The position numbers and the translations under genes are program-made. From Planctomycetota bacterium (GTDB lineage: Bacteria; Planctomycetota; Phycisphaerae; Phycisphaerales; SM1A02), in contig JADFOJ010000029.1 in assembly GCA_022562915.1 (NCBI GenBank), positions 1 to 32,980 of the forward strand: a stretch of 32,980 bases of DNA, given 5' to 3'. Below are positions 1 through 24,610 of the stretch, in pieces (the first letter of the stretch is position 1; every line of letters starts with the position of its first letter). The notes under the pieces are model-generated. The model ran no database searches. It saw only the letters and a program-made list of their open reading frames with translations, and was not told the DNA's origin.

Positions 1-3
1 CCG

Positions 4-435
4 ATGACTGCCGGCGCGATCCCCGACCGCGAACCCGTCACCGCGCTGCCGACGCGGCGCTTGGTCGTGACGGCGCTCGTCGCGGCGGCCTTGACGGCCC
101 TGGGCTGGGCGGGCGTGACCGCGCTGACCGGACGGCACGGCTCGATCACGGCCGCTGCGAGCGGGGCGGTGCTGGTGGCGGGCATCTCGATCGGCAGCCT
201 GCTGCTGATCCGGCCGTGGCGGCCGCGCGCACTCGGAACCTGGGCAAACCTGTGGCTGGCCGCCCTGGTGGGCAGGCTCCTGTTCACACCGGCGCTGGCC
301 TACTTGCTATACTCCGCGACCCAACTCAGCCTCACCCCGCTGATGCTGTCCATCGGCGTGACGTACGTCGTCGTGCAGATCAGCGAGGCGGCGGCGTTGG
401 CAGCACATCTCAATCGAATCTCCGCACCCTCTTGA
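4..435 (+). CDS. AtpI-like small membrane protein at head of ATP synthase cluster
   Basis: A 143-residue hydrophobic protein with about four predicted membrane segments (roughly residues 20-42, 45-68, 78-102 and 108-135) and no soluble domain. Its place 24 bases before atpB is the usual place of AtpI, the poorly conserved membrane protein that helps assemble the c-ring, so the role is inferred from size, hydrophobicity and position and not from a diagnostic motif. The ATG lies 4 bases from the window edge. No ribosome binding site can be judged and the true start could lie further upstream. Confidence 0.6.
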   Translation: MTAGAIPDREPVTALPTRRLVVTALVAAALTALGWAGVTALTGRHGSITAAASGAVLVAGISIGSLLLIRPWRPRALGTWANLWLAALVGRLLFTPALAYLLYSATQLSLTPLMLSIGVTYVVVQISEAAALAAHLNRISAPS

Positions 436-459
436 GCCCGACTCAGGGTATCCCCTCCT

Positions 460-1377
460 ATGTTCCTTCTCGCCGGCGATGTTCAGATCGACCCGACCGA
501 ACACGTTCGCGACGTGGTCCTGCTCAAGATCGGCGAGGTCCCGATCGTCACCATGCACATGGTGACGCTCATCGCCGTCACGGTCGTCTTCCTGCTGGTC
601 ATGATGAAGGCGGCGAAGGCGATCGCCACCGGGCCGGAGTCCGAAGGCAACGATCGCTACATGACCAGGGGACGCCTCGGCCAGATCATCGAGACGATGG
701 TCGTGTACCTGCGCGACGAGATGCTCGCGCCGGTGCTGGGTGCCAGGGACACGAAGCGGTACCTTCCGTACCTGATGACGCTCTTCTTCTTCGTGCTCTT
801 CCAGAACCTCTTCGGGATGATCCCGTTGGCCGACATCCTGCACCTGTTCGGCGTCCACCAGACGCCGATCGGCGGAACCGCCACCGCGAACATCATGGTC
901 ACCGGGGCGCTGGCGGTGTTGTCGTTCTTCATGATCGAGTTGCACGGCTTCCGCGAACAGGGCCTCAAGGGATGGCTGCTGCACAACTGCGGCGGTCTCG
1001 TACCCGGACCGGTCTATCTCCTGCCGATCGCACTGCTGGTCTTCGTGGTCGAGCTTGCCGGTCACCTCATCAAGCCGACCGCGCTGGCCATCCGTCTCTT
1101 CGCCAACATGTTCGCAGGCCACACCCTCATGGCGGTGCTGTTGAGCTTCGGTCTCGTCGCCCATCACGGAGGCATGGGCCTGCTCGGCATCGGCACGATC
1201 TCGGTCATCAGCGGCGCGGCCGCCGTGATGGTCATGTTCCTCGAACTGTTCGTCGCCTTCCTGCAGGCGTTCATCTTCATGTTCCTGACAGCCGTGTTCC
1301 TCAGCCTCATGTCGCACCATGAGCAAGAGCACGAGCACACACCGCCGGAGCCGGCCCTGGAGCCGGCGAGTGCCTGA
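460..1377 (+). CDS. atpB: F0F1 ATP synthase subunit a
   Basis: Subunit a of the membrane F0 sector, which forms the two proton half-channels beside the c-ring. The protein is 305 residues and multi-spanning. The signature helix reads LAIRLFANMFAGH, with the essential arginine at R212, preceded by GHLIKP and followed by hydrophobic segments up to about residue 290. The C-terminus is a short tail rich in His, Glu and Pro. The length is somewhat above the usual 230-290, mainly from an N-terminal region before the first helix. It is the second gene of the cluster and is followed by atpE after 46 bases. Confidence 0.96.
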   Translation: MFLLAGDVQIDPTEHVRDVVLLKIGEVPIVTMHMVTLIAVTVVFLLVMMKAAKAIATGPESEGNDRYMTRGRLGQIIETMVVYLRDEMLAPVLGARDTKRYLPYLMTLFFFVLFQNLFGMIPLADILHLFGVHQTPIGGTATANIMVTGALAVLSFFMIELHGFREQGLKGWLLHNCGGLVPGPVYLLPIALLVFVVELAGHLIKPTALAIRLFANMFAGHTLMAVLLSFGLVAHHGGMGLLGIGTISVISGAAAVMVMFLELFVAFLQAFIFMFLTAVFLSLMSHHEQEHEHTPPEPALEPASA

Positions 1378-1423
1378 ACCGGCGATGCCCGCACACGGCA
1401 CCGCCAAGGAGAGACAACCACGA

Positions 1424-1759
1424 ATGCACAAGCTTCTCACCATGATGTTGGTCGCGTTCGCCGGCCTGAGCGTGTTCGCGTGCGGCACCGCCGGCGCGGC
1501 GCCTGGCGAACTGGCCGCCGGACTGCTGCTCGCCCAGGGCGAAATGACCGGGCTGGGCGCAGGCCTGGCGGCGGGCCTCGCCGTGGTCGGCGCCGGCATC
1601 GGCATCGGTCGCATCGGCGGTGACGCCGTGCAGGCGATCGCCCGCCAGCCCGAAATGGCAGGCCGGATCTTCATCAACATGATCCTCACGGCGGCACTGG
1701 TCGAGGGCGTGGCGCTCTTCGCGGTGATCGTCGGCGTGATCGCACTCGGAAAGGTCTGA
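1424..1759 (+). CDS. atpE: F0F1 ATP synthase subunit c with N-terminal presequence
   Basis: Subunit c, the ring-forming proteolipid. The 111-residue product has a hydrophobic N-terminal presequence (about residues 1-26) before the classic two-helix hairpin: glycine-rich helix 1 (GAGIGIGRIGG), the polar loop ARQPE at 73-77, and helix 2 carrying the ion-binding carboxylate E94 in ALVEGVALF. The sodium-binding pattern (Gln in helix 1, Ser after the Glu) is absent: the equivalent positions are Ile and Gly, so proton coupling is inferred. The ATG at 1424 was preferred over an in-frame one at 1319 because the latter lies inside atpB. An AAGGAGAG ribosome binding site stands about 10 bases before it. 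Confidence 0.95.
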   Translation: MHKLLTMMLVAFAGLSVFACGTAGAAPGELAAGLLLAQGEMTGLGAGLAAGLAVVGAGIGIGRIGGDAVQAIARQPEMAGRIFINMILTAALVEGVALFAVIVGVIALGKV

Positions 1760-1766
1760 GCAACCC

Positions 1767-2333
1767 ATGCCCAACGCCACGACCCTGTTTCTTGCCGCTG
1801 AGCCCGTTGCCGGCGCGCATGCCGTGGAACGGCCCGAGGTGATGGCGCTGACCTGGCTACCCGCCGTCACCGCGTTGGTAGTCTTCGTCCTGGCGTTCGG
1901 TTTCCTCTACGTCATGGTGTGGCCGAAGATCATCAAGGGGCTGGACGACCGCGATCAGAAGATCCGCCGGGAGATCGCCAACGCCGAGCAGGCCCGCGAG
2001 CAGGCGAATGCCGCCCTGGCCAAGTACGAACAGGAGCTCGCCTCCGCCCGCGAGGAAGCAAGCCGGCTCATCGCACAGGCCCGCGCCGACGCCAAGGCGG
2101 TCGCCGTGGAGTTCCGCGATCGCAACGAAGCGGAGCTTGCCGAGATGAAGCAGCGCGCCATCCGCGACCTGGAGACCGCCAGGCGGGCCGCGATCACCGA
2201 ACTGCACGCCGAGACGGCCACGCTGGCGGTGAGCATCGCCGGCCGGATCCTCAAACGCGAGATCTCCGTCGCGGATCAACAGCGTCTCGTGGAGGAGTCA
2301 CTCGGTGAACTTGCCGGCGTACGGAAGCGATAG
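1767..2333 (+). CDS. atpF: F0F1 ATP synthase subunit b
   Basis: Subunit b, the peripheral stalk that holds F1 against rotation. The 188-residue product has one membrane helix at about 28-52 and then a long charged, Ala/Glu/Arg-rich coiled coil from about 56 to 160. The region after the helix (VWPKIIKGLDDRDQKIRREI) is typical of bacterial b subunits. The segment of about 27 residues before the helix is longer than in E. coli. The gene starts 7 bases after atpE, and its stop TAG abuts the atpH ATG without spacing, which suggests translational coupling. Confidence 0.95.
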   Translation: MPNATTLFLAAEPVAGAHAVERPEVMALTWLPAVTALVVFVLAFGFLYVMVWPKIIKGLDDRDQKIRREIANAEQAREQANAALAKYEQELASAREEASRLIAQARADAKAVAVEFRDRNEAELAEMKQRAIRDLETARRAAITELHAETATLAVSIAGRILKREISVADQQRLVEESLGELAGVRKR

Positions 2334-2945
2334 ATGATCCGCCACACCGACGCGCTGGCCAGCGTGTACGCCAGGAGCCTCTACGAACTCGCGGCCGAAG
2401 CCGGCGGCCGCGACAAGATCGTGGAGGTCGCCGACGAAATCGAGCAGGTGTGCGAGCTCGCCCGCGGCAACCGCGCGTTCCGCGAGTTCCTCGGCTCCCC
2501 GATCGTCGACCGCGGTCGCCGCGCAGACGCGCTGCGGGACATCTTCCGGGAGCGGGTGACGGACCTCGTGCTGCGGTTCATGCTGGTGCTCAACGACCGC
2601 GGCCGGTTGAGTCACCTCGAGTCGATCGCCGGCGCCTACGACCACCTGGTCAACGAGGCGTTCGGGCGAGTCGAGGTCGATGTCTTCACGCCGGGCCCGC
2701 TCGACCCCGAGCAGGTCCGGTCGCTCTCGCAGCGTATCGGTGCGGCGCTGGGCAAAGAGCCGGTGGTCTACACCTATACTGATCCTGAGATGATCGGCGG
2801 CCTGAAGCTGAGAATCGGCGACCAGCTCATCGACGGCTCGGTGGCGGCACGGCTGAGGAAAATCCGGCAGAGCTTCCTGACGTCCGGAAGCGCCGCCATC
2901 CGCGAGCGATTCGACCGGATCCTCGACGAAGGAGAGGCTCGATGA
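2334..2945 (+). CDS. atpH: F0F1 ATP synthase subunit delta
   Basis: Delta subunit, linking the top of F1 to the b stalk. The 203-residue product shows the family pattern: an N-terminal helical bundle starting [29 protein letters not shown] near residues 45-60, and a C-terminal part with [22 protein letters not shown], the characteristic delta/OSCP strand-turn. It is about 20 residues longer than the E. coli protein. It starts directly on the atpF stop codon and its own TGA overlaps the next ATG in an ATGA arrangement, so it is probably translated from the same message as its neighbours. Confidence 0.94.
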
Positions 2946-15475: not shown

Positions 15476-17749
15476 GTGTTGCAACAGGTGCTCGTCCTGC
15501 TCACCGTCACGGTGCCCGGCCTCGCCGGCGCGGGTACGACATGGTATGTCGATGACGACGCGACGCCGGGCGACGGTACTGCCTGGGAGACGGCCTTCGC
15601 CGAACTCCAGTCGGCTCTCGCCGTGGCCCGGGCCGGCGACGAGATTCGCCTGGCCCAGGGCGTGTACACGCCCGACTACGACCGGGACGCCGGCGTCCAC
15701 AACGGCGATCGGACGGCCACGTTCACGCTCGTCAACGGGACCTCGATCACCGGCGGCTGGGCGGGTGTCACCGAGCCCTCTCCGGACGCCCGGGACATCG
15801 GCCTCTACGTGAGCCGGCTGAGCGGCGACCTCGCCGGCGACGACGGCCCCGGCTTCCGTGGGTACGGCGAGAACAGCTACCACGTTGTGACCGCCAGCGG
15901 CACGGACGCCTCGACGGTCCTGGCGGGGGTGACGATCACCGGCGGCAACGCCGATGGCGAGGGGTTGCCGACCCTCTGCTTCGGCGGGCCCGACTCCGGG
16001 CAGGCGTGCGGTGACAACGCCGACTGCGACGGCGCCGACTGCGTGAGCCTCGACAGCACCGGCGCAGGCCTGATCGCCTTCAACGGGCGGGCGACACTGC
16101 TGCAGTGCACGATCACCGACAACGTCGCCGCCTTCCAGGGCGGGGGAGTACTGCTGAAGGCCGGCAGCGACATGACCTTCACCGACTGCCTCTTTGCGGG
16201 CAACCGGGCACTTGACAACGGCGGGGCGATGTACTGCGGCGCCAGCAGCCCCTCGATCACCGGCTGCACCTTTTCCGGCAACTCCGGCGTCCGCTACGCC
16301 GGGGCGATCTGCAACCGCGACCTGAGCAACTCGATCATCACCGACTGTCTCTTCACGGGCAACACCGCGGCGGAGAACGCAACGACCGGCGGCGGGGCGA
16401 TCGTCAACGCCTCCAGCAGCCCCTCGATCACCGGCTGCACCTTCGACCGGAACGTGTCCATCCTGGGCGTCGCCGGCGCACTGTACAACAAGGTCGGCTT
16501 CCACCCGGCGTTGGGTTCGAGCGACCCGCTCGTCGAGGACTGCACCTTCACGAACAACACCGCGGTGACGGGCGGGGCCGTCTACAACGACCTCTCCGGC
16601 CCGACGTTCTCCGGCTGTAGTTTCGAGGCCAACGACGCCACCGCAGGCGAGGGCGGCGGGGCGATGTGGAACAACGGCGGCAGCACCGTGCTCACCGGGT
16701 GCACGTTCACCGCCAACCTGGGGTTCAACGGCGGCGCCGTCTACAACGGAGGCGGCGCGGATATCCTGATGGTCGAGTGCGCGTTCACCGGCAACGCGGC
16801 GATCAACGACAACGGCGGGGCCGTCTCGAACGTCATCTCCGGCGGCATGATGCTCGGGTGCACCTTCATCGACAACACCGTCTCCGGCAACGGTTTCGTC
16901 ACCGGCGGCGGCGTCAACAACTACTTCGCCAACCCGTCGGTCATCGGCTGCGTCTTCATCGGCAACAGCGCCGACTTCGGCGGGGGCGGCCTCTACAACG
17001 AGAGCGGCGGCGAGGGTGGCCCCCTCGTGGCGAGATGCACGTTCATCGAGAACACCGCGCCGTACGGCGCCGGCATGTACAACTTCTGGAGTCATCCGAC
17101 GGTGACGAGTTGCCTCTTCGCGGACAACACGGCGTCGCTGTGGGGCGGGGGGATCTACAACGACTTCGGCAGCAGCCCGTCCGTGAGCCACTGCACGATC
17201 GTCGGCAACACGGCGGGCCGGGGCGGCGGCGTCAACAGCGAGAACGTGCTGGGCGCGCCGGAGATCTCCCACTGCATCATCTGGGGCAACAGCCCCCAAC
17301 AGATGACCGACGACGTGGAGTCTCCCTCGACCGTCTCCTGGACGAACATCCAGGGCGGCTGGCCGGCGGGCAGGACGAACATGAACGAGGATCCGGGCTT
17401 CGCCGACCCGGCGGGCGGCGACTACCGACTGCTGCGGGGTTCAGCGTGCGTGGACGCCGGCGACCCGAACCTGGCCGGCGATCCCCGTGAGACGGACCTG
17501 GCCGGCAACCCCCGGCTCGCCGACGGGGACGGGGACGGCACCGCGGTCCCGGACCTGGGGGCCTACGAACTCCAGCCGTGCCCCGGTGACATCGACGGGG
17601 ACGGATCAGTCGGGATCAACGACTTCCTCGAACTCCTGGCCGCCTGGGGCCCGAATCCGGGGCATCCGGCCGATCTCGATGGCGACGGTGCCGTCGGGTT
17701 CGACGACTTTGTCCTTCTGCTTGAGGACTGGGGGCCGTGCCCCGCCTGA
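15476..17749 (+). CDS. Secreted right-handed parallel beta-helix protein with dockerin-like tail
   Basis: A 757-residue exported protein. The GTG start gives a short hydrophobic signal peptide (LVLLTVTVPGLAGAG). The start of the mature part, WYVDDDATPGDG, is a common opening of polymorphic outer-membrane-type beta-helix proteins. From about residue 205 to 625 a repeat of roughly 30-40 residues recurs with the pattern C-T-F-x-x-N-x-A-x-x-G-G-G-x-Y-N, each repeat one or two coils of a parallel beta-helix. Next come a segment ending LGAYELQPC and two EF-hand-like loops, DIDGDGSVG and DLDGDGAVG, each followed by a helix ending in W-G-P. It is probably a cell-surface or extracellular protein; no catalytic residues were recognised. 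Confidence 0.85.
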   Translation: MLQQVLVLLTVTVPGLAGAGTTWYVDDDATPGDGTAWETAFAELQSALAVARAGDEIRLAQGVYTPDYDRDAGVHNGDRTATFTLVNGTSITGGWAGVTEPSPDARDIGLYVSRLSGDLAGDDGPGFRGYGENSYHVVTASGTDASTVLAGVTITGGNADGEGLPTLCFGGPDSGQACGDNADCDGADCVSLDSTGAGLIAFNGRATLLQCTITDNVAAFQGGGVLLKAGSDMTFTDCLFAGNRALDNGGAMYCGASSPSITGCTFSGNSGVRYAGAICNRDLSNSIITDCLFTGNTAAENATTGGGAIVNASSSPSITGCTFDRNVSILGVAGALYNKVGFHPALGSSDPLVEDCTFTNNTAVTGGAVYNDLSGPTFSGCSFEANDATAGEGGGAMWNNGGSTVLTGCTFTANLGFNGGAVYNGGGADILMVECAFTGNAAINDNGGAVSNVISGGMMLGCTFIDNTVSGNGFVTGGGVNNYFANPSVIGCVFIGNSADFGGGGLYNESGGEGGPLVARCTFIENTAPYGAGMYNFWSHPTVTSCLFADNTASLWGGGIYNDFGSSPSVSHCTIVGNTAGRGGGVNSENVLGAPEISHCIIWGNSPQQMTDDVESPSTVSWTNIQGGWPAGRTNMNEDPGFADPAGGDYRLLRGSACVDAGDPNLAGDPRETDLAGNPRLADGDGDGTAVPDLGAYELQPCPGDIDGDGSVGINDFLELLAAWGPNPGHPADLDGDGAVGFDDFVLLLEDWGPCPA

Positions 17750-17819: not shown

Positions 17820-19199
17820 ATGAAGAAATGCCATGTGAGTCTGTGTGCCCTGGCTGTGCTGGTGGCCTGTCTGCCCGCAGCGACGGTCAACGCCCAAGCA
17901 GACGTCGCGCTGTGCCAACTGCACCTGGTCACGAAGTGGGGGACGGTCGGCAGCATCACCGCCTACTCGGTGGGAACGACCTCCGTCAACGTCGGCTCCA
18001 CGAACCTGAACTGGATCCAGAACGGAGTGAACCACCCTGTCATCGGGCAGACGATGTACCGGATCTTCGACGGCAGGATCGAGATGATCGGCCAGTCGTG
18101 GCTCAAGCACAGCTTCTGTGCCCTTCAGATCAACAGCGCCTGCGACAATGGGTGCCCCGGTCAGGGCGGGTGCCTGAGTTTCCTTGCCCCCGGCTGCCAG
18201 GACCCGTACTCGGCCGTGCGGAACGGCTCCCAGAGCCTGCTCGGCCCGAAGTACCAGGTCAACGCCAACGCGGGCACGTTCATCTGGCCGCATCCGACGC
18301 CGGGTGCCGGGACCATCACCGGCCGGCTGCAGGTCCACAACTCGGACCTGGGCGACGGCGGCTCGGTCTACCTCGTCGAGGGCCAGTACGTGGCTCTCGA
18401 CGACGCCAATGCCGGCAACCAGGACAACAACGCCTCGTACCGGTTGGTGAATATCTCGTCCGCACCGAGCTTCAACATCAGCTTCGTCGCCGGCCAGGGC
18501 ACCGAGTTTCAGCGCGAGGCGATTCGCGCCTGGGCAGACCACGGCAACGGCGTCGGTACGCCCGACCCCGACGTCAAGATCGTGAAGGCGACCGACTCCG
18601 ACGGCGGGCTGTTCTGGGTGGGCTACAAGGCAAGCGACAACGGTGACGGCACCTGGCACTACGAGTACGCCATCCAGAACATGAACAGCCATCAGTCCGG
18701 CGCGTCGTTCAGCGTGCCGGTCGGGGCGGGCGTGACCGTCACCAACATCGACTTCCACGACGTGGAGTATCACTCCGGTGACGGCACCGGCGGCGTGAAC
18801 TTCAACGGGGACGACTGGTCCGCCACCGTCGGTCCCGGCAGCGTCACATGGCAGACGCAGATCGAGACGCAGAACCCCAGCGCCAACGCCCTGCGTTGGG
18901 GTACGATGTACAACTACCGCTTCGACGCGGACAGCGGCCCCGAGCTCGTCACGGCCACGCTCGGCCTGTACCGCGGGAGCCCGCCCGACGCCCTCTCGGC
19001 CTCGATCTCGGCACCGCAAGCGGTCCTGGTGGTGTGCCCATGGGACTGCGAGCCGGTTCCCGAAGGCACCGTCGGCATCACCGACTTCCTGGCACTGCTC
19101 GGGCAGTGGAACAGCCCCGGGAGCTGCGACTTCGACGGCGGCGGCGTCGGCATCACGGACTTCCTCGACCTGCTGGCGAACTGGGGTCCCTGCCCGTAA
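17820..19199 (+). CDS. Secreted protein of unknown function with degenerate dockerin-like tail
   Basis: A 459-residue protein with a clear signal peptide (CALAVLVACLPAATVNA, cleavage near residue 25). The mature part is rich in Gly, Asn, Ser and aromatic residues, includes a Cys-rich patch (ACDNGCPGQGGCLSF) near 110, and reads as an all-beta extracellular domain that I do not recognise. The C-terminus (about 405-459) is the paired W-G tail also seen in the preceding protein, but the first calcium loop is degenerate (PVPEGTVG in place of D-x-D-G-D-G) and the second has lost one Asp (FDGGGVG). It has its own promoter and ribosome binding site and ends 37 bases before a strong terminator. Confidence 0.82.
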   Translation: MKKCHVSLCALAVLVACLPAATVNAQADVALCQLHLVTKWGTVGSITAYSVGTTSVNVGSTNLNWIQNGVNHPVIGQTMYRIFDGRIEMIGQSWLKHSFCALQINSACDNGCPGQGGCLSFLAPGCQDPYSAVRNGSQSLLGPKYQVNANAGTFIWPHPTPGAGTITGRLQVHNSDLGDGGSVYLVEGQYVALDDANAGNQDNNASYRLVNISSAPSFNISFVAGQGTEFQREAIRAWADHGNGVGTPDPDVKIVKATDSDGGLFWVGYKASDNGDGTWHYEYAIQNMNSHQSGASFSVPVGAGVTVTNIDFHDVEYHSGDGTGGVNFNGDDWSATVGPGSVTWQTQIETQNPSANALRWGTMYNYRFDADSGPELVTATLGLYRGSPPDALSASISAPQAVLVVCPWDCEPVPEGTVGITDFLALLGQWNSPGSCDFDGGGVGITDFLDLLANWGPCP

Positions 19200-19236
19200 A
19201 AGTCGTCAAGGATCGGTGGTCACGATCAGCACCGGA

Positions 19237-19263
19237 GAACCCCGCGGCGCAGCCGCGGGGTTC
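19237..19263 (+). terminator. Rho-independent-type terminator
   Basis: Perfect 12-base stem GAACCCCGCGGC (19237-19248) and GCCGCGGGGTTC (19252-19263) with loop GCA, followed by CTGCTTTG. The T-tract is short, but the stem is the strongest in the window and sits just after the secreted-protein gene. Confidence 0.8.
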
Positions 19264-19359: not shown

Positions 19360-22300
19360 ATGTCTGAAGTCTCGCTGCCGGTGGTGAACACGACAACGAT
19401 CCGGGCGTCGAAGTCCGGCCGGCGTCGGGCTGTTGTCCTGGTCATCGTGCACGCGCTGGTGGCGATCCACATCGCGCTCTGGTTCGCCACCGGGGAAACG
19501 ATGACGCCGCTGGAGCCGTCGGAGTCGATGGAGTTCTCGAAGCACGGCATCGTCAACGCCGGGCTGATCTTCTTCGCGCTCACGATCCTCAGCACGCTCT
19601 TCTTCGGTCGCTGGTTCTGCGGCTGGGCGTGCCACCTCGTCGCGCTGCAGGACCTCTGCCGGTGGATGCTCGGCAGGCTCAAGTTGCGGCCGCGCCCCGT
19701 GAACCTGGGGATCCTCGGCACCGTCCCCCTCGTGGCGTTCGTCTACATGTTCATCGCGCCGCTCGTGTACCGCCTGCACTTCGGGGACTCGCTTGCGGTG
19801 CGTGGCGTGCAGCTCACGACCGACGCCTTCTGGGTCACGTTTCCGTCGTGGATCCCCGCGGTGCTCACCTTCGGGACCTGCGGCTTCATCATCGTCTACC
19901 TGCTCGGCGCCAAGGGCTTCTGCACCTACGGCTGCCCGTACGGCGCGATCTTCGGCGTCGTCGACCAGCTTGCGGTCGGCAGCATCCGGGTGACCGACGC
20001 GTGCCGGGGATGCGGCCACTGCACGGCCGTGTGCAGCTCCAACGTGCGGGTCCACCAGGAGGTCCGCGACTTCGGCATGGTGGTGGACCCCGGGTGCATG
20101 AAGTGCCTCGACTGCGTCAGCGTGTGCCCCAACGACGCGCTGTACTTCGGCATCGGCCGACCCTCCATGTTCGCCACACGTCGCGCCGGTCGCCGCGCAA
20201 GCCGCGTCTGGCAGGCCCTGCCCGAGTGGCTCCTGACGGCCGGCTTCATGTTCGGGGCCTACAGCCTGCTCATGTGGTACGACCAGAACCTCGTCTGGCG
20301 GGTCTCCGGAATCCTGACCGCCGGCTCCCTCCTGATCGTCGTGCTCTTCAAGGGGCGCGCCGAGCGGCCACGTGAGTTCACGCAGGCGGAGCAGGTGATC
20401 CTGGCCGGCGTGTTTCTCGGTTCGATGTTTGCCTGTCGCGGGCTCTACGGCCTGGTGCCGTTCCTCTTTGCGCTGGGTCTCGGAGCGATCCTCTCGTATG
20501 GGGCGCTCCACGCGTTGCGGCTCGCGTACCGCCGTGACGTCGGCGTGCACGGCTTCTCGCTCAAGCGGGCGGGCCGGATCCGCCCGGCGGGTATCGCGTT
20601 CGCGGCAACCATGCTGGCGATCGCGACGCTCACCGTGCACAGCGGCTTTGTCCAGCACCACACGCTCTCGGGCCGACGCGCCTACCGGGCAGCGTTTCTC
20701 GCCCGGGGCGATGGCCGGGACAACGCGTCGCTCATCGAGGCGGGGCTGAGCCACCTGTCACGAGGCTACGGGCTGGCGCTCGTCAAGAGCCCCTACGACC
20801 TGGCGACGCTCGGGCGGCTGCACCTGCTGGCGGGTGACGACGACGAGTACGAGCGGTTGCTGGGAGCCGCCATCACCGCGGTGCCCGACGATGCGGAGCT
20901 TCACGAGGAACTCGGTGACTTTCACGGCACGCGGGGCCGTGCCGACGAAGCCCTCATGAGCTACCGGCATGCGCTCGAACTCGATCCGGACCGTGTCGAG
21001 CTCAGCGTGGAGGTCGGACGGTACGCGGCGCTGCTGGGACGCTACGACGAGGCACGTGGAGTCTTCGAGGCTGCGATGGCCCGCGACCCGACCGCGGCCA
21101 TCGTGGTCTTCAACTATGGCGTCCTGGAGTCGATGCTCGGCCGCAGCGACGAGGCCATCGCCCGGTTCGAGCGCGCCGTTGCGCTCGACCCGGACTTCAT
21201 CGAAGCGCGGGAGAACCTGGCCGGGATGTACTGCCGGGTCGGCCGCTTCACCGAGGGCATCGCCCAGTTCAACACGGCGATCCGGACCCGGGCCGACGAT
21301 CCACGGACCCACGAGCTGATCGCGCGGGCGTACCTGGCGGTACAGCAGGTGTCCAGCGCGGAGTCACACCTGTACCGGGTACTCGAACTCGCCCCGGATC
21401 ACGGGCCGGCTCGCGCCCTGCTGGCCGAGATCGACGCGAGCCGGAGCATGGACACCGGCATGTCGGTCGAGGAGGAGGTCGCCCGCAATGTTCTCTCGCA
21501 AGCCGTCGGCAGCGGCACGTTGCAGTCCTTCGCGCTTCCGGAGCCGTTCCTGCGACGCATCGCCGACCGGATTATCCGGGAGACGTACCGCGAGCGACAT
21601 CGCCAGGTCCACCCGGACCACTCCGGCGGTTCGCCCGCGGCACGGGTCACGGGCCGGGCCGGGGATGGTCTCGCGATCCGGACCCACGAACTCCCGCACG
21701 AGGTGGAGTTGGCGCGCCGCCTGTACATCGAGGATCGCCCCGCGCTTCGCGGTTTCAAGGCACCGATCGCCGGCGCGTTCGGACCGGACGTCGCGTGGCC
21801 GCGGGACTACCCGCCAGCGTTAACCACGCCGGCCCGGGTCGTCGCGGAGAACCTCGCCGTGGAAGGCCTGCTGCCGACCGTGGGCCTGGTGATCGAGAGC
21901 ATCGGGCCCGAAGAGTTCCTGGCGGACGCCGAGAGCGGAGTCGAGCTGCTGCGGTCCGTCGGCGTCCCTGTGGATCTGCTGGCCTTCTTTGATATGAAAG
22001 ACGCCGTGACCGCGATTGCGCGGCGGCTCCGGGACGGGGCGAGCGCCAGTCTCCTGGCCGCCGAGCTTCGTTTGACGGCCTTCGACTTCCGGCCGACACG
22101 GCCCGGCTTCCGGGCGGCCACCGAGGACGGCGCTCACGAGATCGGCATGCTCCGACTGCAACTCACGCGCGGAACGTACTGGCGGGGTCCCGGCGCCGGT
22201 GGCTGTCTCGACGTCGCCCGCCAACTCGTCGAGACGATGCCGGGCGTCGACATCGTCGCGAGCCTCGAAGAACGTCACCTGCCGTCGTTCGAGGCGACCG

Positions 22301-23442
22301 TGTCGACCTGGCCGCTCGATCGCCGCGCGCAGTTCACGGTGCTGGTGGAGCGGTCGATGACGGTGTCGCAGTGGGCGCAGGACAACGGCAAGGCCGGGAT
22401 CGTCGACGGCCACGTCGCGACGATCGTCCCGCGGTATGCGTCCCGCCGGGAGGACGGGTCGGTCTTCGTCCCCAACGAGTCATTCCTGATGGATGGTCTC
22501 GCCGCAATCGGGCATACCGTGATTCATTCGCCGCTCCTGTTCCAGGGCGGCAACCTGCTGCTGGTCGACGAGCCGGCCGCGGGCCTTCGGACGCTTCTTC
22601 TCGGCGAGGCGGAAATCCACCGCAATACCGCGCTGGGGCTGACCGTCGAGCAGGTGCTGCAGGCGTTTCGCACCGAGTTCGGCGTGGACCGCTGCGTGGT
22701 CCTGCCGGCGGTGTCGTTTCACATCGACTACGACGTCAGCGTGCGCGTCGCCGCCGACGGCCAGGTGATCGCCTTTGTCAACGACACCGAGGCAGCACTG
22801 AGAATCATTCTTGACCTGGGTCTCGGCGCCCTGGAAGAGCACGGCACGCTTGACCGTCTGACGGCTGCCGCCGCGCGAGAGTTCCTCGCCGCGGACCGCA
22901 TGGCCGATCTCGTTGACGCCGTGCGGCCGTTGGTGCTGGCGACCGTGGACGAGCGCGGCCGCTTCCCCATCGACCTCGCGCGGCACTTCGCCGCCGGACC
23001 CATGGACTCGCCGGTCGGCAATCTCCAGCGCTTCATGGCCGCGCTTGACGCCGCGACGAGCCGGGTCATTCCCGGTCTCCGGCCGGCGGACCGGCACGCC
23101 CGGAGCTTCTTCGCCTCGTTCGGCCGACGTCGCGCCGACCGCGCCGAGCTGCACCGCGGGTTGGCCTCGCTGGGGTGGAGGGTCGTGCCCGTCCCCAGCC
23201 TCGCCGATGCCGAGGTCAGCCTGGTCGCCATCAACGGCATCCAGGATCGCTCGCGTTACCTGATGCCCGCCTACGGCGGCTTCTACGCGCCGCTCGACGA
23301 GGCCGCCGCCGAGGCGTTCCGGCAGACGCTGGGGCCGGGCGTCGATGTCGTGCCCATACTCTGCGGCGAGAGCCAACGCCGCGTCGGGGCGGTGCACTGC
23401 TCTGCCGCGGCCTATCCCAGGGTCGGACCCCTGCCCCCGTGA
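19360..23442 (+). CDS. Fusion protein: NapH/CcoG-like polyferredoxin + TPR array + PAD-like pentein domain
   Basis: One uninterrupted 1360-residue frame. Residues 1-430 resemble NapH/CcoG-type membrane ferredoxins: helices at about 22-43, 64-82, 116-137, 164-183, 290-330, 345-386 and 409-428, paired motifs FGRWFCGWAC (82-91) and GFCTYGCP (186-193), then two [4Fe-4S] sets, C215/C218/C221/C225 and C246/C249/C252/C256. Residues about 475-690 are TPRs (for example ALMSYRHALELDP, AIARFERAVALDP). Residues about 700-1360 are a guanidino-modifying pentein domain close in pattern to peptidylarginine deiminases: WAQD (D1008), FQGGNLLLV, HIDYD (H1121, D1123) and GAVHC (C1347). Positive-inside topology puts the Fe-S part in the cytoplasm and the TPR and pentein parts outside. 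AAGGA lies 9 bases before the ATG. The substrate is unknown. Confidence 0.85.
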   Translation: MSEVSLPVVNTTTIRASKSGRRRAVVLVIVHALVAIHIALWFATGETMTPLEPSESMEFSKHGIVNAGLIFFALTILSTLFFGRWFCGWACHLVALQDLCRWMLGRLKLRPRPVNLGILGTVPLVAFVYMFIAPLVYRLHFGDSLAVRGVQLTTDAFWVTFPSWIPAVLTFGTCGFIIVYLLGAKGFCTYGCPYGAIFGVVDQLAVGSIRVTDACRGCGHCTAVCSSNVRVHQEVRDFGMVVDPGCMKCLDCVSVCPNDALYFGIGRPSMFATRRAGRRASRVWQALPEWLLTAGFMFGAYSLLMWYDQNLVWRVSGILTAGSLLIVVLFKGRAERPREFTQAEQVILAGVFLGSMFACRGLYGLVPFLFALGLGAILSYGALHALRLAYRRDVGVHGFSLKRAGRIRPAGIAFAATMLAIATLTVHSGFVQHHTLSGRRAYRAAFLARGDGRDNASLIEAGLSHLSRGYGLALVKSPYDLATLGRLHLLAGDDDEYERLLGAAITAVPDDAELHEELGDFHGTRGRADEALMSYRHALELDPDRVELSVEVGRYAALLGRYDEARGVFEAAMARDPTAAIVVFNYGVLESMLGRSDEAIARFERAVALDPDFIEARENLAGMYCRVGRFTEGIAQFNTAIRTRADDPRTHELIARAYLAVQQVSSAESHLYRVLELAPDHGPARALLAEIDASRSMDTGMSVEEEVARNVLSQAVGSGTLQSFALPEPFLRRIADRIIRETYRERHRQVHPDHSGGSPAARVTGRAGDGLAIRTHELPHEVELARRLYIEDRPALRGFKAPIAGAFGPDVAWPRDYPPALTTPARVVAENLAVEGLLPTVGLVIESIGPEEFLADAESGVELLRSVGVPVDLLAFFDMKDAVTAIARRLRDGASASLLAAELRLTAFDFRPTRPGFRAATEDGAHEIGMLRLQLTRGTYWRGPGAGGCLDVARQLVETMPGVDIVASLEERHLPSFEATVSTWPLDRRAQFTVLVERSMTVSQWAQDNGKAGIVDGHVATIVPRYASRREDGSVFVPNESFLMDGLAAIGHTVIHSPLLFQGGNLLLVDEPAAGLRTLLLGEAEIHRNTALGLTVEQVLQAFRTEFGVDRCVVLPAVSFHIDYDVSVRVAADGQVIAFVNDTEAALRIILDLGLGALEEHGTLDRLTAAAAREFLAADRMADLVDAVRPLVLATVDERGRFPIDLARHFAAGPMDSPVGNLQRFMAALDAATSRVIPGLRPADRHARSFFASFGRRRADRAELHRGLASLGWRVVPVPSLADAEVSLVAINGIQDRSRYLMPAYGGFYAPLDEAAAEAFRQTLGPGVDVVPILCGESQRRVGAVHCSAAAYPRVGPLPP

Positions 23443-23578
23443 CATTCTCCGTGCTGTTCCATTTAGCAGCCGACGTGCACGTCGATACCCGACAGCGATA
23501 TGCGGTCACGCCGGGCGCATCCATCTCAGGCGGATCTGGAACCCTCCTAGACTGGCGCGATGCTGACAACGCCCGACG
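23443..23578. other. Non-coding scar region after the fusion gene
   Basis: No gene recognised. TAGACT at 23548-23553 followed by ATG at 23560 reproduces the leaderless pattern seen elsewhere in the window, but the frame closes after 8 codons. This may be the surviving promoter of a lost gene. Confidence 0.35.
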
Positions 23579-23740
23579 GACAATGAACGCTCTGGATACA
23601 GCAGGCTCGTCGGTGAGCTCTCGAAACTCGGGGTCGTGCTGTCGCGATCAAGCGTGCGTCGCATCCTCCTGGAACATGGCCTTGGACCCGCACCCGAGCG
23701 GCTCAAGCACAAGCCGTGGGCGAAGTTCCGGGACGTCCTG
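23579..23740 (+). pseudogene. Fragment of an integrase-core (rve) type transposase
   Basis: An open stretch of about 54 codons reads DNERSGYSRLVGELSKLG, then SSVRRILLEHGLGPAPER and KPWAKF. This matches the segment just before the catalytic core of IS481/IS3-like transposases and integrases (G-Y-R-R-I-x-G-E-L-x-x-L-G, then V-R-R-I-L-x-x-H-G-L-x-P-A-P-x-R, then W-x-x-F). There is no start codon, no N-terminal helix-turn-helix domain and no DDE catalytic core, so only a remnant of an inserted element is left. It is joined directly to the ABC-F fragment. Confidence 0.7.
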
Positions 23741-23775
23741 AGGAATGTGGGAGTGGAATCGGTTCGCTTGCCGCC

Positions 23776-23890
23776 AAAGAGCCCGATCTTCTCCCCCTTG
23801 CTCGACCGACACCGTCACGCCGTCCAGGACGATCCGGGTGCCGAAGGCGCACGAGACATCGGCACGTGTCAGGAGCCCCATGGCGAACGA
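23776..23890 (-). pseudogene. Duplicated 5' end of the ABC-F gene
   Basis: On the minus strand this encodes the first ~35 residues of an ABC-F protein (MGLLTRADVSCAFG, then IVLDGVTVSVEQG) and stops matching before Walker A. The bases align without gaps to 15239-15352, the start of the intact ABC-F gene and its upstream edge, with roughly one change in nine by eye. The intact copy continues for 1.8 kb; this one runs into the transposase fragment. It is a duplication remnant, or the trace of an ancestral second ABC-F gene. Confidence 0.8.
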
Positions 23891-23921
23891 ATGTCGCGGC
23901 GGGACAGTCCTTCAACGTGGC

Positions 23922-23927
23922 TACACT
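23922..23927 (+). promoter_or_regulatory. Putative -10 box of a leaderless transcript
   Basis: TACACT followed by CGTTCGCC and the ATG at 23936. This is nearly identical to the sequence before the ABC-F gene (minus strand, 15356 downwards). Together with 23877-23895 on the other strand it forms an inverted repeat around the start codons. Confidence 0.45.
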
Positions 23928-23935
23928 CGTTCGCC

Positions 23936-24610
23936 ATGGGGATATCGACGCGAACGCTGGTCCGGCGCAGCGGCTTGATCGCCGGGCCGCTGCCGGCGGG
24001 GGTGTGCTACCTGATACTGCCGGAGTCGTATCGCGACGCGACCGGGACCCTCGTCGAGTTCACCTCCGCCGGCCGGGTGACGCTCGCGGTCATGACGTGG
24101 ATGGCCCTGTGGTGGGTGACCGAGGCGATCGACATCTCCGCCACGGCCCTGCTGCCGATCGCCGTGCTTCCCACGCTCGGGGCCGTCTCCATCGGCGAGG
24201 CCACCGCGCCGTACGCCAACACGCTGATCTTCCTGTTCCTGGGCGGGTACCTGCTGGCGCTGTCCATGCAGCGCTGGGGTCTCGACCGCCGCATCGCCCT
24301 GTTGACCCTGAGATGTACCGGCGACCGGCCGGCCGGCATCGTCGCGGGCATCATGCTGGCGACCGCCGTCCTGAGCATGTTCGTCTCCAATACCGCCACG
24401 GCGGCGATGATGCTGCCGATCGCATTGAGCGTGGTGACGCTGCTGCGCCGCGACGACCGCGTGGACAACTTCGCGATCTGCATGATGCTCGGCATCGCCT
24501 ACGCGGCGAGCATCGGGGGCATCGGCACCAAGATCGGCACACCGACCAACGGGGTCCTGCTGATCACGGGGCTGGCATTTGCCGTGATTGCACACCGCCT
24601 GGGGCCTTGA
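23936..24610 (+). pseudogene. N-terminal half of an SLC13/DASS-family transporter
   Basis: A 224-residue product with about six membrane helices. It carries the first-half DASS pattern: WMALWWVTEAIDISATALLP (about 54-73), NTLIFLFLGGYLLALSMQ, FVSNTATAAMMLPIAL, and the signature SIGGIGTKIGTPTNGVL near 198-214. Intact members are about 450-500 residues and need a matching second half, which is absent. After the first signature the frame ends in a short unrelated tail, AHRLGP. The next gene starts 20 bases later and is unrelated. This is most simply a deletion-truncated gene. It has a good start and promoter-like box, so a short product may still be made. Confidence 0.75.

Follow-up and report, generated by a model that had tools for sequence, protein, structure and literature searches.

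Why should a membrane-bound polyferredoxin and a peptidylarginine deiminase (PAD)-like enzyme be encoded in one and the same gene? This question is raised by contig JADFOJ010000029.1 of a Planctomycetota bacterium (assembly GCA_022562915.1), whose stretch of 32,980 nucleotides is referred to here as the window. At positions 19360..23442 of the plus strand a single gene encodes a protein of 1360 amino acids (aa), in which a NapH-like polyferredoxin is followed by a tetratricopeptide repeat (TPR) array and a PAD-like pentein domain. This order was proposed in the original prediction, which had been made from the sequence letters and open reading frames, and it was confirmed by Pfam matches to Fer4_5/Fer4 and TPR families and by a fold model of the pentein part. 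The accompanying claim that no such protein has been described held within our limited literature library: searches there revealed neither a peptidylarginine deiminase in Planctomycetes nor a polyferredoxin with TPRs in this group, and pentein-ferredoxin fusions led to unrelated structure papers only.

The fusion is genuine and not an assembly artefact. The frame is unbroken over all 1360 codons, the GC content at third codon positions ranges from 0.80 to 0.97 in each 90-codon window, codon-position GC is even from end to end and there are no Ns. Furthermore, the proposed search for the same architecture in other Planctomycetota was successful, as a second planctomycete metagenome-assembled genome (MAG) contains the same three-part protein (L101, JACZTW010000017.1), with 57% identity in the NapH part and 52% in the pentein part. 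A chimeric assembly or a misread frame joining two genes might be suspected in a draft genome of 153 contigs and with pentein and NapH-TPR genes unlinked in most relatives, but we consider this extremely improbable and discarded it: L101 comes from an independent MAG and agrees in both part order and junction region, codon-position GC is even across the junction and the usual neighbour gene of the pentein is still located directly upstream. This agrees with the original view that an artefact is less likely.

The first part of the protein is a type-1 NapH-like membrane module (residues 1-430, 19360..20649, plus strand), assigned by Pfam, TIGR02163, tables of transmembrane (TM) helices and cysteines, and NapH trees. 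Fer4_5 (PF12801, above cut-off) and Fer4 were found at residues ~67-262, and hydropathy, read jointly with the L101 homologue, indicates about nine TM helices. The module contains two full [4Fe-4S] cysteine sets (C215/218/221/225 and C246/249/252/256) and the CxxxC pairs C87/91 and C188/192. Fer4_5, TM helices and both cysteine sets together mark it as a NapH-like polyferredoxin, and the match to the NapH/MauN family TIGR02163 (E 7e-19) stays with 68 bits below the curated cut-off of 213. The TPR array covers about residues 482-690 (20802..21429, plus strand) in three to four stretches, with Pfam matches at residues ~513-690. From the count of nine TM helices the N-terminus and the [4Fe-4S] cysteines are predicted to be inside, and the TPRs, following TM9, and the pentein outside. 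This is in line with the originally proposed location of the pentein outside the membrane and with the signal peptides or lipoboxes of most standalone relatives.

For the third part we used AlphaFold2 with an alignment of the window sequence and 23 homologues from other genomes, which resulted in a model of high quality (predicted local distance difference test, pLDDT, 90.3; predicted template modelling score, pTM, 0.91). The model points to a five-blade pentein fold of the guanidine-modifying superfamily, as had been expected from the sequence. The best Foldseek matches are PAD_porph/agmatine deiminases (E 2e-11 and ~1e-11), followed by human PADs and DDAH. In VIA-align, the Porphyromonas gingivalis deiminase PPAD ranks first (Z 27.6 over 299 residues, 15% identity), followed by agmatine deiminases (Z 24-26.6, Campylobacter jejuni 26.6), human PAD4 (22.0) and animal/cyanobacterial PADs (~19-22). 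PPAD and the best agmatine deiminase are only about one Z unit apart, so that their ranking is effectively tied. The original extent of the pentein, residues 700-1360, had to be refined: residues 695-910 form a helical domain of their own and the catalytic core comprises residues 914-1358 (22099..23433, plus strand) with a helical insertion of ~127 aa at residues ~1143-1269 (window ~22786-23166). As a feature, the helical N-terminal domain was delimited to ~residues 695-913 (21442..22098, plus strand).

At the sequence level the relationship is far less visible. The profile searches that had been suggested recovered the Fer4_5/Fer4 and TPR families, whereas PAD_porph (PF04371) remained below threshold with an E-value of 0.011 for the full length and 0.0007 for residues 915-1360, corresponding to 18-19 bits at a gathering cut-off of 25. 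The single pentein sequence had no match in a direct search of the PDB, and a profile yielded in HMMER only weak agmatine deiminase/PAD_porph chains (1zbr, 2ewo, 6b10). As hhalign aligned only the last blade with a secreted planctomycete PAD_porph protein, the mapping of the D/H/D residues rests on motifs and fold.

The residues originally named as catalytic positions are found at their proposed sites and do not vary in alignments of 13 and 24 sequences, which argues against a chance motif match. D1008 of the WAQD motif (22381..22383) is the candidate guanidinium-binding equivalent of PPAD D130, H1121 and D1123 of FHIDYD (22720..22728) correspond to H236 and D238, and C1347 of GAVHC (23398..23400) is the putative nucleophile equivalent to C351; all are on the plus strand. 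Equally invariant are G1063-G1064, N1292 (23233..23235, plus strand), the equivalent of PPAD N297, and R1025 in PRYASR (22432..22434, plus strand), which at the motif level is the candidate counterpart of PPAD R152 and PAD4 R372. Thereby the catalytic Cys, His and acidic guanidine-binding residues are present in superfamily order. The N297-type Asn and the GxxHC nucleophile motif of PAD_porph are also present, with N1292 aligned by HMMER to the Asn of 1zbr and 2ewo, and C1347 to the catalytic Cys region of 1zbr, 2ewo and 6b10. Residues were mapped to PPAD by motif order and fold, not by superposition. In PPAD, D130, G182, H236, D238, N297 and C351 are essential according to mutagenesis, and R152, like R372 of PAD4, contacts the main chain or carboxylate of the substrate (PMC4487231). 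At the motif position of PPAD Tyr233 our family has no Tyr and mostly small residues. Tyr233 limits PPAD to C-terminal arginines.

How could these parts work together? We see about an even chance that the protein works outside the cytoplasm as an arginine deiminase tethered to the membrane, with protein arginine as its probable substrate and the NapH-TPR part as anchor and perhaps as thiol protector; topology, deiminase activity and partner are what we infer here. As in PPAD and the PADs, C1347 would attack the guanidinium group held by D1008 and D1123, H1121 would act as general acid/base and N1292 would assist the thiol, with citrulline and ammonia as products. The NapH-TPR part would keep the enzyme on the outside of the cytoplasmic membrane, and the TPRs probably bring a protein partner into position, for which the adjoining GC-dockerin-like protein is the best candidate. 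From PPAD/PAD enzymology and the invariant residues, a thiol-dependent guanidine hydrolase is likely. The original alternative of a deiminase or an amidinotransferase shifts toward the deiminase with PPAD, agmatine deiminases and PADs as top structural matches; amidinotransferases are absent among the Foldseek matches listed, which lowers the probability of this activity without excluding it.

The electron role is the weakest step of this explanation. The NapH module would probably draw electrons from quinol or cytoplasmic donors, and these may help to keep the extracytoplasmic catalytic thiol reduced. PADs require reducing conditions and lose their activity outside cells (PMC4858833; PMC6396667), and NapH-like proteins are thought to exchange electrons with extracytosolic partners and have repeatedly formed new modular partnerships (PMC8238504). 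Taken together, a thiol-reducing role would connect the two halves of the protein in the most economical way. The originally assumed redox gating, however, found no support, as the fusion protein contains no CxxCH haem motif and no recognised flavin mononucleotide (FMN)-binding or thioredoxin-like domain; for FMN-binding domains the Pfam scan covered the fusion protein and the 17820-19199 neighbour and was negative in both. It seems unlikely to us that the respiratory or quinol redox state controls the catalytic thiol and thus leads to redox-dependent citrullination of a secreted surface protein in a free-living bacterium.

In a scan of one genome per species we identified 26 relatives, all in MAGs titled Planctomycetota or Phycisphaerae-type lineages, and a further fusion was not found in a 392-genome sample of the phylum. 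The standalone pentein usually has ~600-760 aa and a hydrophobic leader or lipobox, as expected for an exported protein or lipoprotein. Among the closest relatives L103 carries a signal anchor and L108 a lipobox-like signal, and the fusion junction lies where these N-terminal anchors end. It is possible, and our main rival explanation, that NapH-TPR is simply a membrane anchor and periplasmic scaffold which replaced the pentein's own anchor by rearrangement, without any electron or regulatory coupling. The anchors of L103 and L108, the position of the junction and the missing relay domain all favour such pure tethering. On the other hand, the fused copy retains all [4Fe-4S] cysteines, and the pentein is associated with NapH-TPR twice and with different paralogues, in one case (L107) as separate overlapping genes whose pentein keeps its own signal peptide, which is hard to explain by anchoring alone.

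In L107 (JAJRYY010000031.1) the stop codon of the NapH-TPR gene overlaps the start of the pentein gene as ATGA. In the NapH trees the window and L101 proteins form one clade (100/99), and the L107 protein belongs to the other paralogue group (type 2) together with a copy on contig C130 of the window genome. The pentein tree has a supported set (96/96) of window, L101, L103 and L108 without L107. As the fusion and the L107 pair use different NapH-TPR paralogues, both parts were probably brought together independently at least twice. In the second [4Fe-4S] set of type-2 proteins (L107, L143, L144, L146-L149) an Asp occupies the position of the second Cys, whereas this set is complete in the fused copies and in nearly all type-1 copies. 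The type-2 copy of the window genome deviates in another way, as one of the cysteines in its first set is missing.

NapH-TPR proteins are widespread in the order, with matches (E <= 1e-3) in 292 of the 400 genomes searched, and normally have no further domain behind the TPRs. The type-1 gene of the relatives L086-L090 adjoins NDK, a sigma factor and, in most of them, a PTS EIIA-like gene, and in the window genome NDK and sigma factor genes are present on contig C70 with no NapH-TPR gene beside them. The fusion is the sole type-1 copy found in this genome and in that of L101, each of which has in addition one standalone type-2 copy; at a completeness of ~93% the absence of a second type-1 copy in the window genome is no proof. 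The simplest history would be a relocation of the single type-1 NapH-TPR gene to the pentein gene, with which it became joined. Immediately downstream of the fusion gene, window 23560-24610 contains a transposase-like fragment and a truncated transporter-like open reading frame ending near 24610, which suggests a past rearrangement at this end of the locus. The pentein itself also occurs in split form: L113 (5890-8108), L116 (5527-8150), L106 and the first copy of L111 use two overlapping reading frames, one for the first part of the helical N-terminal segment and the other for the catalytic core. With an ATGA or GTGA overlap and a separate leader on the core, the arrangement in L113 and L116 resembles two subunits more than a frameshift.

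The second line of evidence on the substrate comes from the gene directly upstream of the fusion (17820..19199, plus strand). It encodes a secreted GC-dockerin-like protein of 459 aa, which is a conserved pentein neighbour and a candidate partner or substrate. In 19 of 26 loci a gene of this family has the orientation of the pentein gene and is at most ~1.1 kb away; these 19 are not independent, as the genomes are related. The same linkage was observed in 12 of 15 loci of a partly overlapping genome set. Per genome there are between one or two and several full-length members of the family, so that chance adjacency would be rare. We regard this protein, which the original prediction leaves unmentioned, as the better partner candidate. 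The C-terminal GC-dockerin-like segment of this protein and of the product of 15476-17749 is common to dozens of proteins on many contigs of the window genome, so that a large number of its secreted proteins carry a similar tag.

This linkage also bears on the possibility that the enzyme is a membrane-bound extracytoplasmic agmatine or arginine deiminase acting on a small agmatine-like guanidine compound and not on protein arginine. In favour of this, the fold of agmatine deiminases is almost as good a match (Z 24-26.6), and they provide the best PDB sequence matches. Nevertheless, we consider a small substrate somewhat unlikely, because R1025 is invariant where, at the motif level, PPAD and PAD4 bind the substrate main chain that agmatine does not have, because the pentein is linked to a secreted protein gene in these 19 of 26 loci, and because PPAD is the best fold match, although effectively tied with the best agmatine deiminase. 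Protein arginine is thus favoured over agmatine, but only moderately, by R1025 and the secreted-protein linkage.

Several observations weigh against the proposed membrane-tethered protein arginine deiminase and its partner. Identity to known PADs is only ~15%, and the fusion protein has no haem, FMN or thiol-disulfide relay domain that would bridge the distance from the [4Fe-4S] clusters on the cytoplasmic side to the catalytic thiol on the other. Most pentein relatives do without an adjoining NapH-TPR, four of them (L114, L118, L119, L120) have no export signal, and the TPR array of L101 is shorter, which speaks against conservation of a recognition surface. The neighbour family has multiple copies, and in the DNA available for L101 there is no dockerin-type neighbour. 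The model of the neighbour protein is moderate (pLDDT 72.5) and has no convincing PDB match, the best rows by E-value having TM-scores of at most ~0.3. Finally, a strong GC-rich hairpin (19236..19262, plus strand; RNA fold z -4.0) separates both genes. It has no T-run and is not a textbook terminator, and a consensus scan found no terminator-like site between the two genes; with this hairpin in between, co-transcription is not assured.

A role in a defence system was also considered and dropped, as PADLOC models matched neither the fusion nor the neighbour protein. At the beginning of the window (1-2945), translations read by eye revealed the start of an ATP synthase operon with a small membrane subunit-like frame and atpB-, atpE-, atpF- and atpH-like frames; a non-atp frame is in place of atpA and the operon looks split.

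PADs need a reducing environment, and it is of practical interest how they nevertheless stay active outside cells. This becomes testable with a natural protein that unites a PAD-like enzyme with an electron carrier of the membrane, for which the unfused, overlapping genes offer a comparison. The second fusion and the overlapping gene pair suggest that membrane redox chemistry may indeed be linked with protein-arginine modification outside the cell. In addition, the analysis delimits a family of PAD-like penteins in planctomycetes that are mostly exported, have a conserved partner gene for a secreted protein and are missed at the Pfam cut-off.

With the NapH/MauN ferredoxins (TIGR02163; PF12801) the fusion protein shares membrane helices, CxxxC pairs and two [4Fe-4S] sets, but it stays below the family cut-off and has about nine TM helices and C-terminal TPRs predicted to be outside. 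The planctomycete NapH-TPR proteins (~600-900 aa) have the same first two modules with 46-66% identity in the NapH part; in contrast to the fusion, they have no domain beyond the TPRs, and in the genomes checked their genes show no linkage to the pentein gene; their core copy is located beside NDK, sigma factor and PTS EIIA-like genes. Known PADs come from animals and from a few microbes. The animal and cyanobacterial enzymes (PADI) share the catalytic pentein fold (Z ~19-22), whereas the protein described here is bacterial, fused to a membrane module and has no PAD_N or PAD_M domain by Pfam. The bacterial and plant agmatine deiminases (AguA, PF04371/TIGR03380) are similar in fold and in the order of catalytic residues, but in our family an invariant Arg follows the WxxD motif, additional domains are present, most members are exported and there is linkage to a secreted protein gene. 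PPAD (PF04371) is an extracytoplasmic enzyme of pentein fold, as is predicted for the fusion protein, and its residues D130, G182, H236, D238, N297 and C351 have invariant counterparts here; the fusion protein is without the C-terminal immunoglobulin superfamily domain and the Tyr233-like residue, and possesses instead a helical N-terminal domain, the ~127-aa helical insertion and NapH-TPR. The component parts are of known kinds, and what we found no description of in the literature available to us is their combination and a mostly exported planctomycete pentein family with its partner.

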